Source: a virus. Taken from it: 40,172 nucleotides of DNA. How positions within the stretch are numbered: the first letter of the stretch is position 1; each line of letters opens with the position of its first letter. The position numbers and the translations under genes were made by a program. This document shows, piece by piece, positions 1 to 40,172 of this stretch. The notes beneath the pieces were generated by a model. That model had not been told where the DNA came from, searched no databases, and was given only the letters and a program-made list of their open reading frames with translations. The stretch is from IMG/VR virus record IMGVR_UViG_3300046318_000277, positions 1 through 40,172 of that record; one strand, given 5' to 3'.

Positions 1-164
1 GAACCGGAACCGTAACCGTAACCGGAACCGGAACCGTAACCGGAACCGGAACCGTCACCGGAACCGTTACCGAAACCGTAACCGTAACCGTAACCGTCAC
101 CGTAACCGTCACCGTAACCGTAACCGGAACCGTCACCGGAACCGTTACCGAAACCGGAACCGGA
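1..164. repeat. Degenerate hexamer tandem repeat, left end
   Basis: An uninterrupted run of hexamers of the form ACC-GNN, with units ACCGGA, ACCGTA, ACCGTC, ACCGTT and ACCGAA and no indel. It is much more GC-rich than the rest of the window. Positions 1-126 are identical to 40014-40139. Past 126 the two copies can be realigned by a 12-bp (two-unit) gap. It is the coding sequence of the Gly-X protein on the minus strand. Confidence 0.97.
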
Positions 165-179
165 ATTAACTTTACTCAT
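1..179 (-). CDS. Glycine-dipeptide-repeat protein, N-terminal part (runs off left edge)
   Basis: I do not recognise a family. Read on the minus strand from the ATG at 179-177, the protein begins MSKVN and then alternates strictly X-Gly for 27 pairs, X being Ser (10), Tyr (9), Asp (4), Asn (2) or Phe (2). Two other frames through the hexamers are also open. This one is preferred because it has a GGAG ribosome site 5 nt before the ATG, its start overlaps the stop of the DUF6948 gene (translational coupling), and the same frame at the right end of the window stops in a normal gene gap. It leaves the window after two bases of a codon. If the ends join, those two bases plus one base at 40172 make an intact codon and the product would be about 135 residues. 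By composition it should be disordered and resembles sticker-and-spacer condensate-forming sequences (inference). Confidence 0.72.
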   Translation of the reverse strand, partial: MSKVNSGSGFGNGSGDGSGYGYGDGYGDGYGYGYGFGNGSGDGSGSGYGSGSGYGYGSG

Positions 180-570
180 TTTCGCTCCAAGTTTTAATCG
201 AGTTAATATTTTTTATACATTTTTCTGAGCACAATATTATCTCATTCACACCCAATACTATACGCCCATGACTAACTACTGAAATCCTGCTCTCTACTTT
301 ATCAGTAACGCCATGCACTGCTAAATCTGTTAATTCTGTTGCGCCTACCCATTTCCAGATTCTGCGGCTACTATCTAAGATAGCAGTATCTTTATCTATT
401 TTTTTTAAAATAGCAAAGAAAACACCTGCTGAGTATGTTCTAACTATAACGTATTTTCCGATATAGTCTGAATAAATATCTGTTGAATCGGAGGTTGTTT
501 TATCTGATCTATCACACTCAAACATTCTTTCAATCATTTTATCTAATAAAGATTCTCTAATTTTTGACAT
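172..570 (-). CDS. DUF6948 family protein
   Basis: A 132-residue phage protein of unknown function. The core VIVRTYSAGVFF (about residues 41-52), the RRIWKWVGA stretch (about 69-77), a following LAVHGV and a late ELxxCSEKCIKNI-like segment match what I know of the DUF6948 family, which is seen in phages and prophages. It is the first gene after promoter copy 1, with AAAGGAAATACAA before the ATG. Its stop overlaps the start of the Gly-X repeat gene, so the two are probably translated together. No enzymatic motif is visible. The family call is from recognition, not a search. Confidence 0.75.
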   Translation of the reverse strand: MSKIRESLLDKMIERMFECDRSDKTTSDSTDIYSDYIGKYVIVRTYSAGVFFAILKKIDKDTAILDSSRRIWKWVGATELTDLAVHGVTDKVESRISVVSHGRIVLGVNEIILCSEKCIKNINSIKTWSENE

Positions 571-36840: not shown

Positions 36841-37626
36841 CTACTTAATATTTAACATCATCATCGGATTACCTGACGCACCGCTATAAGTCGGTAATTT
36901 GCCGTCCCATTTCTCAATCATTTTTGACTGAATTTCAAGTTGTTTCAAAGCTATCAATTCTGGCGTAACAACTGATTTTTGTAATTGCATTGCGTCAGCT
37001 TGACCTCTTGCCTCAACAACTTTCTGTTGTGCTTCTACCGTTATTCTATTTAAATCATTTTTGGCTTTATTAGCGTGCTGTTCTGCAATTTGTTTAGCTT
37101 CTATGGCTTCACTATAACCTTTGCTAAATGAAAAGTTTGTAATACTCATACTGTCAACAAATAAATCATACTGCTTCAGCTTTGCCGCTAAAGCAACATT
37201 AATCTGTGCGCTTACTAATTCACGCTTTGTGATTAATTCCTCAGCGTTAAACTGCGCCACAATTGATTTAAACGCTTCACTTGTTGCGGGCTTTACGATG
37301 TTATTTTCTAAGCCAAGCTGGTCGCTTCCGAGTCGTAGAAAATGATTAACGGGGTCTAATGCGCCGAGATGATAATTTAGTGTTATTTGTGTCTGCACAT
37401 TTTGTAAATCTTTACTAGCCGCTTCTGAAGAATCAGCGACAGTGCGAACTTTTGTATCTAAAATAACAATAGTGCTACTAATCGGATTATACCAATAAAA
37501 CCCCGGGGATAAGGGTGGGCTTGACACTTTACCCCAGGTGGTTTGTAATCCAACTGTACCATTTTGAACAATAGAGCACCCAGTTAATGATGTTGCTAAA
37601 ATAGCTAAAATTATTCTTTTATTCAT
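36841..37626 (-). CDS. SPFH/prohibitin-like lipoprotein
   Basis: 261 residues from ATG 37626 (AAAGG upstream; the frame also opens at 37644). MNKRIILAILATSLTGCSIV has a lipobox LTGC, so Cys17 is probably lipidated, unlike the usual transmembrane anchor. GLQTTWGKVSSPPLSPGFYWYNPIS and VQTQITLNYHLGALDPVNHFLRLGSD form the SPFH (Band 7) domain, then a helical IAEQHANKAKNDLNRITVEAQQKVVEARGQADAM coil typical of prohibitins and HflK/C. SPFH proteins form large ring complexes on membranes and modulate proteases. Phage copies are uncommon; a role against host FtsH-type proteolysis or superinfecting phages is conjecture. Confidence 0.82.
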   Translation of the reverse strand: MNKRIILAILATSLTGCSIVQNGTVGLQTTWGKVSSPPLSPGFYWYNPISSTIVILDTKVRTVADSSEAASKDLQNVQTQITLNYHLGALDPVNHFLRLGSDQLGLENNIVKPATSEAFKSIVAQFNAEELITKRELVSAQINVALAAKLKQYDLFVDSMSITNFSFSKGYSEAIEAKQIAEQHANKAKNDLNRITVEAQQKVVEARGQADAMQLQKSVVTPELIALKQLEIQSKMIEKWDGKLPTYSGASGNPMMMLNIK

Positions 37627-37693
37627 TATAATTATACCTTTCAAATTTGATAAAAATTGTTGTTGATCTTTGAGTTAATACCACATAATTATA

Positions 37694-38080
37694 TTAGAAT
37701 GGTATATTGTCAGAATTTAACGCACCACGTGATATACCTTCGTCAATTGGTGGTAAATTATATGTTGGCTCGGCGTGCTCTTCTTTTTTACTAAGTAACT
37801 CAATATTCCGAGCATAAATCTGTAATGTAGCCATAGGCTTATTCTCTCTACTTAAATATGCTTTAGCATTTGAGAATCCCTGTACCAATATTTTAGTACC
37901 TTTCGTAACGTAATTACGTACTACATCAACTTGCTTCCCGCTAACTGATACGTCGCACCAATCGGTTTTGTCTTTCCCCACATTAACACCAACTGAGAAT
38001 GTGGCGTATTCTTTTCCGTCGTGACTTACTCTAACTTCTGGAGTACGCCCTACGTTTCCAATTATATTTATGTCTTTCAT
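37694..38080 (-). CDS. ssb: Single-stranded DNA-binding protein
   Basis: 128 residues. MKDINIIGNVGRTPEVRVSHDGKEYATFSVGVNV with the OB-fold SSB start, WCDVSVSGKQVDVVRNYVTKGTKILVQGF, and ATLQIYARNIELL are standard. The C terminus SDNIPF is the acidic tip used to recruit partners (DDIPF in E. coli). It is the third gene after the Sak4-like ATPase and the PD-(D/E)XK nuclease, so it probably serves recombination and replication. Confidence 0.92.
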   Translation of the reverse strand: MKDINIIGNVGRTPEVRVSHDGKEYATFSVGVNVGKDKTDWCDVSVSGKQVDVVRNYVTKGTKILVQGFSNAKAYLSRENKPMATLQIYARNIELLSKKEEHAEPTYNLPPIDEGISRGALNSDNIPF

Positions 38081-38793
38081 GTTGTTAATCCTTTAATAAT
38101 AATGTTATTTTTATGTGCTGTTTCAATAATTAATGGTTTTAATTTATTTAATACATACCAATAATGCGTATATAAATCTTCAATTTCTCTATCCATAGTA
38201 GCATATCGTTCAAAATTAAATACTTCAAATTTATCAATTCTAATATTATTCATAGCTGGCTCAATAGTTGGCTCTAAAACCTTACCTTGAAATAGATTAT
38301 ATTTAAAATTATCTAACGAAGTTATATATAAATAAACTTTCCATTGCCATGAGTTAGCGTATTTATCATATTGAATTTGCTTAGTAAATTTATGATCCCA
38401 GATTGTTGTAGCGCTTATAGCATCTACTATGCCGTTAATACTTATATTATTAAGCGACTTAGTGATTCTTGTTTCCCGTAACGTTGGCAAAACTATTTCT
38501 ACCGATTCATCAATGCAGTAATCAAACTTGTACATTTCGCCATCTATACCGATCATATTGCTAATTTCGGTACCATATTGGCTTAACTCAAGTATTTTAT
38601 GCAGAGCTGTACCCGCTTTCATTTCTGGAGTCTTTTCAAACTGCTTGAGCAATTCACCAATAAATAAGTCATTAGTAAATTCTACATCATCACCAGTTTC
38701 AGGGTCTTTGCGGCCCCAATATGAGTTGGTGAGATACATGGCGAACGAATCCAATCGGGATGGGCTAGAAAATGCCTGTTTCCAATCTTGCAT
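38077..38793 (-). CDS. PD-(D/E)XK nuclease (Exo/RecB/Cas4-like)
   Basis: 238 residues. GTALHKILE (H65), ISINGIVDAI (D124), IWDHKFTKQ (D133, K135) and the WQWKVYLY box (Q150-x3-Y154) are the H, D, D-x-K and QxxxY elements of the RecB/lambda-Exo/AddB-type nuclease family. It should resect double-stranded ends to feed strand annealing by Sak4/SSB. An ATGA overlap with SSB and a 1-nt contact with the gene before show an operon. No further domain is present. Confidence 0.85.
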   Translation of the reverse strand: MQDWKQAFSSPSRLDSFAMYLTNSYWGRKDPETGDDVEFTNDLFIGELLKQFEKTPEMKAGTALHKILELSQYGTEISNMIGIDGEMYKFDYCIDESVEIVLPTLRETRITKSLNNISINGIVDAISATTIWDHKFTKQIQYDKYANSWQWKVYLYITSLDNFKYNLFQGKVLEPTIEPAMNNIRIDKFEVFNFERYATMDREIEDLYTHYWYVLNKLKPLIIETAHKNNIIIKGLTT

Positions 38794-39008
38794 TAATTTA
38801 TTTCCGATGATTGTATTTCTTTTAATTTAATAACGCCTACAATGCGCCCATTATTAACTTTTGCTATTTTTAAAACATAAGGACTTAATGTCTTTTCACC
38901 ATATAGAGCCAATATTGGTAAATTACCAAATTCATTTTTCATAGATTGTAACCCGTCAATCAATTGTTGTATATCTGTTAATTCAGTAATTTTTATAATA
39001 TTATTCAT
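38793..39008 (-). CDS. Hypothetical small protein of the recombination operon
   Basis: 71 residues. IKITELTDIQQLIDGLQSMKNEFGNLPILALYGEKTL resembles the small helix-plus-strand proteins elsewhere in this window. It lies without gap between the ATPase and the nuclease genes, suggesting it is a cofactor, but no function is known. Confidence 0.58.
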   Translation of the reverse strand: MNNIIKITELTDIQQLIDGLQSMKNEFGNLPILALYGEKTLSPYVLKIAKVNNGRIVGVIKLKEIQSSEIN

Positions 39009-39910
39009 TAAGCAGCTACCTCAGCAAACTGTTTAGTATCTTTGTTAAATGTAAATCCTTTATCAGTAGCTGCCTTAACCAATGCGTGTTTATATAGTGG
39101 TACCGAATCTTTTAGGGCAATTAACTTACCGTTAAAATCTTCTAAACTACCTAGTGCTTGAATCTCATCTAATATAGCCTGAAACTCTTGTTCAGCTTTT
39201 ACCATTTCCTCACTTTTGGCATTCATCTTATTTTTAGTAAATGTAATTAAATCTGCTAGAAATTCACGATGTTCACCTAAGTTGGGTATTTTCTGTTCCG
39301 GTATTTCCGCACAGTTTTTCCCCAAATGATTTTCTGTGGGATTAAAATCAATTTGACGCTCTTTGCCACTCATATACATATAACCCATAAGATCAGCAAT
39401 TTTTGTTATTTCACTTCTACTGTTACCGATTGCATCTGGTCTAATAAATACATTATCACCACTTTTATCCTCTTTGTCATGCATTACTAGTATTATATCT
39501 TTACCATATGATTTTAATTTAATCATAAAGTTCTTAAACATAGTATTTAATTGCCCAAATCCGGGTAAAGATAATCCACCATTCATACGATTTATCATTT
39601 TTGGATTTTCATTTTTAATTTGCGTTTCCATGACTTCTAATAATCTACCGGCTGTATCAACAATAATGGTGTTAAACTCCTTCAAATCATCTTTGGTCAG
39701 GTTAGCTATATCTGCCCATTCTTTGATCTGCACACAGTTCCCACGGATGCTTGATAATGCACGCTGTGCTCCTAGATCAAAATCCAAAAGAAGGGGTTTA
39801 TCTGATGAAAAACTTAGAGATGTTTTTCCAGTTCCGGGCTGACCGTACAAGACAATTATTAAATTCTCAGTTAATATTGGCTGGGTTGGTTTTACTATTT
39901 TAATTGTCAT
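39008..39910 (-). CDS. Sak4-like RecA-type ATPase (phage recombinase)
   Basis: 300 residues. Walker A GQPGTGKT at 23-30, LLLDFDLGAQRAL at 40-52, and Walker B TIIVDTAGRLLEVM with D85, then MHDKEDKSGDN and ADLMGYMYMSGKERQIDF. This is the AAA_24 nucleotide-binding family known as Sak4, a single-domain RecA-like protein that pairs strands with SSB. Its C-terminal 80 residues are a helical extension. It opens the recombination operon with AAAGGAAAATTAAT before the ATG, only 33 nt after the stop of the Gly-X repeat gene. Confidence 0.85.
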   Translation of the reverse strand: MTIKIVKPTQPILTENLIIVLYGQPGTGKTSLSFSSDKPLLLDFDLGAQRALSSIRGNCVQIKEWADIANLTKDDLKEFNTIIVDTAGRLLEVMETQIKNENPKMINRMNGGLSLPGFGQLNTMFKNFMIKLKSYGKDIILVMHDKEDKSGDNVFIRPDAIGNSRSEITKIADLMGYMYMSGKERQIDFNPTENHLGKNCAEIPEQKIPNLGEHREFLADLITFTKNKMNAKSEEMVKAEQEFQAILDEIQALGSLEDFNGKLIALKDSVPLYKHALVKAATDKGFTFNKDTKQFAEVAA

Positions 39911-39943: not shown

Positions 39944-40172
39944 TTATATACCGTAACCGTAACCGTCACCGTAACCGTAACCGTCACCGTAACCGTCACC
40001 GTAACCGTAACCGGAACCGGAACCGTAACCGTAACCGGAACCGGAACCGTAACCGGAACCGGAACCGTCACCGGAACCGTTACCGAAACCGTAACCGTAA
40101 CCGTAACCGTCACCGTAACCGTCACCGTAACCGTAACCGTAACCGGAACCGGAACCGTCACCGGAACCGTTA
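39944..40172 (-). CDS. Glycine-dipeptide-repeat protein, C-terminal part (enters from right edge)
   Basis: Minus strand. Entering from the right edge the frame reads N-G, then alternates Gly with Ser (10), Tyr (17), Asp (7), Asn (2) and Phe (1) over 37 pairs, and ends GYGYGI and a TAA at 39946-39944. The stop is 33 nt before the Sak4-like start. The first base at the edge completes the codon left open at position 1 of the window, so the two pieces are in frame if joined. The join gives S-N in place of S-G-N, a single break of the alternation, which may reflect assembly across the repeat. An overlapping VTVTV/VPVP frame exists but has no supported start. Confidence 0.72.
   Translation of the reverse strand, partial: NGSGDGSGSGYGYGYGDGYGDGYGYGYGFGNGSGDGSGSGYGSGSGYGYGSGSGYGYGDGYGDGYGYGDGYGYGI
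39950..40172. repeat. Degenerate hexamer tandem repeat, right end
   Basis: ACC-GNN hexamers without interruption to the window end, of the same five kinds as the left end. Positions 40014-40139 equal 1-126. Positions beyond 40139 (to 40172) match the left side only after a 12-bp gap. Confidence 0.97.

Follow-up and report, generated by a model that had tools for sequence, protein, structure and literature searches.

The question raised by this locus is whether the six-base repeats found at both extremities of a viral record belong to a genuine phage gene and, if so, what role its product might play. The window analysed here is the entire 'linear' IMG/VR record IMGVR_UViG_3300046318_000277 (40,172 bases), whose two ends we infer to be continuous. 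Tandem 6-bp arrays occupy positions 39950-40170 and 2-162, and the minus strand of both encodes (Gly-X)n, hereafter GX. The reading frame opens with an ATG at position 179 (MSKVNSGSGFGNGSG...), runs off base 1, re-enters at 40172 and reaches its stop at 39944. The product carries the leader MSKVNS, continues with GSGFGNGSG and terminates with GYGDGYGYGI. Its start context, TTGGAGCGAAAATGAG, consists of an SD sequence (GGAG), 7 nt and the ATG, which overlaps the TAA of the ORF at 570..172 by 8 nt. This minus-strand reading bears out the initial annotation, in which the terminal hexamers were proposed to encode a Gly-X chain with an SD, a coupled start and a proper stop.

The two ends of the window share 126 identical bases (1-126 are the same as 40014-40139), and the final 38 bases repeat bases 32-69; thus, the two parts of the GX gene partly duplicate each other, and the true length of the array, as well as the number and order of its units, is not fixed. 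Depending on the overlap chosen, the joined ORF encodes 82, 112 or 135 aa, in frame in all three cases. In the straight join of 135 aa, we counted 64 G, 26 Y, 22 S, 11 D, 5 N and 3 F, and the aromatic fraction of the window protein equals 0.21. The residue count given in the initial annotation matches this straight join apart from the N-terminal leader and the join itself, but some of its units were possibly counted twice. The aromatic residues are spaced by Gly/Ser, as in phase-separating low-complexity proteins. An open frame within a 6-bp array is unsurprising by itself, and the case for its use is therefore comparative. The features discussed below are collected in Table 1.

Table 1. Position of the GX gene and neighboring genes in the window
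Feature	Coordinates	Strand	Evidence and remarks
DUF6948 gene, 132 aa, predicted Sm/LSm fold	172..570	-	PF22253, E 6.5e-19; directly upstream of the GX gene
(GX)n gene, N-terminal part, MSKVNS(GX)n	1..179 (ATG at 179-177)	-	SD GGAG; 8-nt overlap with the upstream stop
(GX)n gene, C-terminal part, ending GYGYGI and stop	39944..40172	-	ORF reading
Sak4-like ssDNA annealing protein	39008..39910	-	phrog_124, E 5.5e-42; 33 nt past the GX stop
71-aa ORF between Sak4 and nuclease	38793..39008	-	without known family
Exonuclease, probable	38077..38793	-	weak Exo5 / phrog_2139 matches
Single-strand DNA binding protein (SSB)	37694..38080	-	phrog_44, E 3e-16
SPFH/Band 7 domain protein	36841-37644	-	PF01145, E 1.2e-31; just downstream of SSB, same strand run

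The product of the upstream ORF is a member of DUF6948, a Pfam family without described function (68.3 bits against a gathering cut-off of 27, over residues 38-121). A search by DUF6948 alone, with no repeat-based query, returned at least 458 viral contigs, 80 of which were kept, and 33 genome contigs assigned to many bacterial phyla and to two archaeal-labelled MAGs. After removal of near-duplicates, 84 loci retained enough downstream sequence for the pair to be scored. We found a GX ORF directly downstream of DUF6948 in 80 of these 84 dereplicated loci, and in 77 of the 80 its start overlaps the DUF6948 end. The offset is most commonly -13 nt (68 loci), with -16 or -19 in seven more; the relative frame of the two genes is identical in 76/80. 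The usual GX start (A|TGG) makes use of a conserved Trp codon close to the C-terminus of DUF6948, and an SD core precedes it in 30 of 77 cases (6.7 expected). The relatives thus keep both start and frame, as the initial annotation had demanded of a real gene. In the window, the GX ORF likewise lies downstream on the same strand with an overlapping start; the offset is -8 and the frame differs from that of the usual -13 pairs, which indicates that the two genes remain coupled despite a different construction of the overlap. In one locus (L111), DUF6948 and GX are fused into a single ORF.

A reverse search was performed with a pattern of seven GGTNNC hexamers in viral contigs, from which single-unit arrays (GL, GP, GA, GV etc.) were filtered as a separate class. 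It matched at least 120 stretches. Among the matches listed, 55 loci contain mixed S/Y/D/F arrays, 33 of them with DUF6948 directly upstream; in 13 of the other 22 mixed loci listed, the array starts at a contig or locus edge. Taken together, the comparisons show that the GX ORF is not a one-off but comes second in a tightly linked gene pair that recurs in many unrelated phages. We also noted small proteins preceding GX arrays at L018:2325-2657, L119:1-234 and L036:1644-1901, where no DUF6948 was recognised; they align weakly in the DUF6948 register (Pfam E 0.037 for one) and may represent very divergent DUF6948/LSm-like members.

The composition of the chain is conserved, whereas its DNA varies by lineage. 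The dominant Gly codon varies by locus (GGC in 60, GGT in 11, GGG in 8 and GGA in 1), while S (35%), Y (26%) and D (23%) prevail among the X residues and all three occur in 74/80 arrays. Single-base departures at Gly positions comprise 70 non-synonymous and 138 synonymous changes, a ratio of 0.51 vs around 2 under neutrality; Gly-to-other changes are thus depleted about 4-fold relative to synonymous ones. The chains have a median length of 78.5 aa (some fall below 40), 66 of the 80 ORFs are closed, and the median aromatic fraction over the 80 is 0.135. Net charge is negative in 76/80, with a median of -9. These data point to a real protein selected for its composition, with G at every other position and S/Y/D in between, and not for an exact sequence. 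The acidity of the chain makes it less likely that it coats DNA directly and favors an indirect role exerted via a nucleic-acid-binding partner. Variation in the window array is confined to the first two positions of the X codons, which raised the possibility of a DNA-level constraint; we rejected it, since other lineages use GGC, GGG or GGA. Because X codons end in C, a DGR-like mutator was also considered and rejected, as codons for Ala, Thr, Ile, Val and His hardly occur. Individual arrays show no synonymous change, in keeping with the shuffling of whole hexamer units.

Such shuffling can be followed in a natural experiment provided by seven Pectobacterium phages of the Ymer genus (PMC11445585) and phage Setonix. 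The DUF6948 genes of Taid, Ymer, Abuela and Amona show no more than one nt difference from the Taid gene over 399 nt. Their GX ORFs measure 258, 222, 222 and 204 nt, respectively, and the order of units is reshuffled among the four phages, Ymer and Abuela being alike. All eight phages retain the ATG, a leader of the MSKLIKPE type, the frame and the stop; the lengths of their GX ORFs range from 162 to 270 nt and differ by multiples of 6. The units consist almost exclusively of GGC followed by TCC, TAC, GAC or TTC. This pattern fits turnover via whole-hexamer recombination or slippage and not via point mutation. Since homogenisation should eliminate unit types, the joint retention of S, Y and D suggests selection on the mixture.

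As for the upstream partner, an AlphaFold model of DUF6948 built with 26 aligned sequences reached a pLDDT of 89.7, and all 50 best listed PDB matches of this model are chains with the Sm/LSm fold. The top match is 6ppn chain H (E 4.8e-4); the TM scores, by target length, lie mostly between 0.5 and 0.76, the upper value being that for the archaeal SmAP 1i8f, and the rmsd to AF-Sm1 (1i5l) is 2.0. The best matches among viral models are DUF6948 proteins themselves. The model includes a helix-containing insert after strand 3. The Sm-type five-strand barrel is thus seen in the predicted structure only: a profile search of PDB sequences with DUF6948 retrieved no Sm protein and no relative, and a Pfam scan of ORF 570..172 gave DUF6948 only, with no Sm1/Sm2 signature. 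As no sequence homology was detected, we file DUF6948 as Sm-like by fold and not as a proven member of the Sm family; it is predicted to be a small protein with an Sm/LSm/Hfq-type fold. The conserved residues Arg44, Arg69, Arg70, Trp72 and Trp74 hint at RNA or ssDNA binding, although they are suggestive only. The net charge of DUF6948 proteins has a median of +2, and that of the window's own member is 0.

On this basis we propose, at roughly even odds, a two-gene module in which an LSm-like protein and an acidic, aromatic, disordered GX tail act together on phage nucleic acid. The first gene would supply the small protein with the predicted Sm/LSm barrel, and the second, with its ribosome site and start inside the end of the first, the presumably disordered, acidic and Tyr-rich Gly-X chain. 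Both proteins would be made together in fixed proportion. The GX chain would then serve as a tail in trans for the LSm-like protein (in L111, in cis), its Asp residues competing with nucleic acid for the barrel while its Tyr/Phe side chains make weak multivalent contacts, and the two proteins would handle RNA or single-stranded DNA in early replication and recombination. Were composition the object of selection, the hexamer array would be free to expand, contract and shuffle without loss of frame. The opposite charge tendencies of the two products (median -9 for GX vs +2 for DUF6948) are consistent with this proposal, but the window's own DUF6948 is neutral and an electrostatic hold on the acidic chain is not obvious there. 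Moreover, co-translation does not require the two proteins to bind each other, the Sm assignment comes from the model (best E 4.8e-4) while the sequences reveal no Sm kinship, and in some loci GX leads into a folded 'FAHG' domain, where it is perhaps a mere linker. A further-reaching version, which we put forward tentatively, is that a split LSm protein with a hypervariable tail in trans would form a nucleic-acid granule or gate an LSm ring in early replication and recombination in phages of widely differing hosts; it would be a counterpart, in bacterial viruses, of the LSm/Hfq proteins that carry low-complexity tails, with selection on composition and not on sequence.

The regular Tyr/Phe residues would allow weak multivalent contacts, and condensation is therefore conceivable. 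An alternative, already raised in the initial annotation, is that GX forms phase-separated bodies, i.e., a replication/recombination condensate around the recombination machinery, with the LSm-like protein as nucleic-acid-binding client or scaffold. The Gly/Ser spacing of the aromatic residues (0.21 of the residues in the window protein, with a median of 0.135 across the 80 chains) and the proximity of ssDNA-annealing genes are in line with it, and precedents can be seen in LSm4-type tails and in the tyrosine/glycine-rich YG domain of PEX13. Yet, many members are short, the chain is rich in Asp with few Arg/Lys partners, and composition alone does not establish phase separation; we regard this explanation as unlikely. 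More doubtful is a counter-defence or decoy pair, in which acidic GX would mimic nucleic acid or soak up a host enzyme and its reshuffling would evade host recognition. A small, acidic product (net negative in 76/80) of an early-region gene would suit this role, as would the very fast turnover of GX beside an almost unchanged DUF6948, but the shuffled arrays keep the same few unit types, as unit-level recombination predicts, and the fixed coupling to DUF6948 is left unexplained.

A similarly low probability is assigned to GX being a flexible linker or spacer that once joined DUF6948 to the C-terminal FAHG domain and persists as a remnant where the domain was lost. GX-FAHG fusions in at least eight loci and the fusion with DUF6948 in L111 speak for such a history; against it, most dereplicated loci end in GX and a stop (66/80 closed, median 78.5 aa), and a bare linker would have no need of a conserved S/Y/D composition. 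Least probable, and in our view very much so, is that the array is a DNA-level element (a recombination hot spot or protein-binding repeats) or a junk microsatellite with an incidental open frame. It is true that a 6-bp array is open in most frames by construction, that each array is dominated by one Gly codon and that contigs often end within it. However, the hexamer DNA varies by lineage while G-[SYD], the start, the SD and the frame persist, changes of Gly are depleted, and lengths shift by whole hexamers with start and stop retained.

The FAHG domain itself (FAHG...WH..LTGSC..GR, ~150 aa) is conserved and C-terminal to GX in L053, L060, L075, L081, L082, L228-L231 and L243. The domain gave no Pfam hit, and its confident AlphaFold model (pLDDT 89) matched no fold in the PDB; possibly, it represents a new fold. 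In L226, the GX stretch is followed by a leucine-rich-like repeat.

Some LSm proteins, e.g., LSm4, possess low-complexity tails. A close likeness to the proposed LSm-like protein with its GX tail is offered by Acinetobacter baumannii Hfq, in which an Sm-type core is extended by a disordered Gly-rich C-terminal domain with GGFGGQ repeats and an acidic tip, and in which the repeat number affects function (PMC11617691). Both systems would thus join an Sm-type core to a disordered tail of Gly/aromatic repeats, with acidic residues present in each. However, the bacterial Hfq is one protein with GGFGGQ repeats, whereas the phage pair consists of two coupled genes with strict G-X alternation, and its acidic residues are distributed along the whole chain instead of at the tip. 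In E. coli, the acidic C-terminal tail of Hfq acts as a nucleic-acid mimic and drives RNA off the Sm ring (PMC5606850), which provides a model for an acidic disordered chain acting on an Sm core; that tip is short and in cis, while the phage chain is in trans, aromatic-rich and hypervariable. With eukaryotic and archaeal Sm and LSm proteins (6ppn, Lsm2-8; 1i8f, SmAP), DUF6948 shares the predicted barrel, but it differs in its insert after strand 3 and in the lack of detected similarity to any solved Sm protein. The YG domain of PEX13 (PMC9795577) and FUS/FG-type domains resemble GX as Gly/Tyr-rich low-complexity chains, but they are eukaryotic. In the acidic phage chain, by contrast, G and S/Y/D follow each other in strict alternation, and the coding sequence is a hexamer array that recombines. 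An Sm-like protein with a disordered tail is therefore known; new are its apparent division between two coupled phage genes and the hypervariability of the tail.

With respect to genomic setting, we detected a Sak4-type, RecT or ERF gene in 22 of 43 DUF6948-bearing viral records. The median distance between the annealing gene and DUF6948 is 2.3 kb vs 10.5 kb under random placement, a proximity reached in 0 of 5000 simulations; the corresponding value for the large terminase is 9.4 kb. Downstream neighbors include helicases, HNH endonucleases, methyltransferases, replication initiators, RecT, Sak4 and a Cas4-type exonuclease. Both the distance and the neighbors place the module in the early DNA-metabolism region, and these comparative data support the original view of a phage gene for a Gly-X low-complexity protein situated in the early region by recombination genes. 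The assumption that its partners are Sak4, the nuclease and SSB did not hold: the consistent partner is the upstream DUF6948, and Sak4 is only one of several annealing proteins that occur a few kb away. Sak4 relatives were dropped as a guide to the array, since they led to only two viral contigs, neither of them with an array; a link to Sak4 is thus not general. Nearness to recombination genes may be explained by the clustering of early and late genes alone, without a direct functional link.

A literature search, with most subscription journals and preprints outside its coverage, revealed no paper naming DUF6948, no description of phage GX proteins or of a coupled GX partner, and nothing on phage LSm granules. 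The predicted Sm-like fold offers a first functional lead for an uncharacterised phage family with members in hundreds of viral contigs, and the pairing links this family to a low-complexity partner that is annotated as hypothetical, missed or probably misframed. In Iodobacter phage PhiPLPE (L239:1173-1410), a complete GX ORF (MSRLVNNKNGDGSGYG...) follows gp84 and is absent from the annotation. In Chlorobiaceae phage CV-1-33 (L238:5286-5531), DUF6948 is followed by an annotated hypothetical protein 'MAMAMALAMAL...', which probably represents an array of this kind translated out of frame. The pair is also present, unremarked, in Taid (CDS0033/0032, two hypothetical proteins) and in Vibrio phage IKEMa6-1, besides PhiPLPE; hence, sequenced phage isolates carrying it are already at hand. 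If the pair works as proposed, it would provide a compact natural system for studying the role of a disordered tail in an LSm protein, and a case of composition kept by selection while order scrambles.

Phage contigs repeatedly stop inside or just after the GX array, as do the window ends and many loci in L125-L204. Assemblies of phage metagenomes thus seem to break commonly at this array, which may account for some incomplete phage contigs. Finally, a second kind of GX protein, with the leader YFYPVG or MYPVG and no recognised DUF6948 adjoining, was observed in L008, L020, L054 and L083; some of these proteins terminate in a basic end, STRTRRR.
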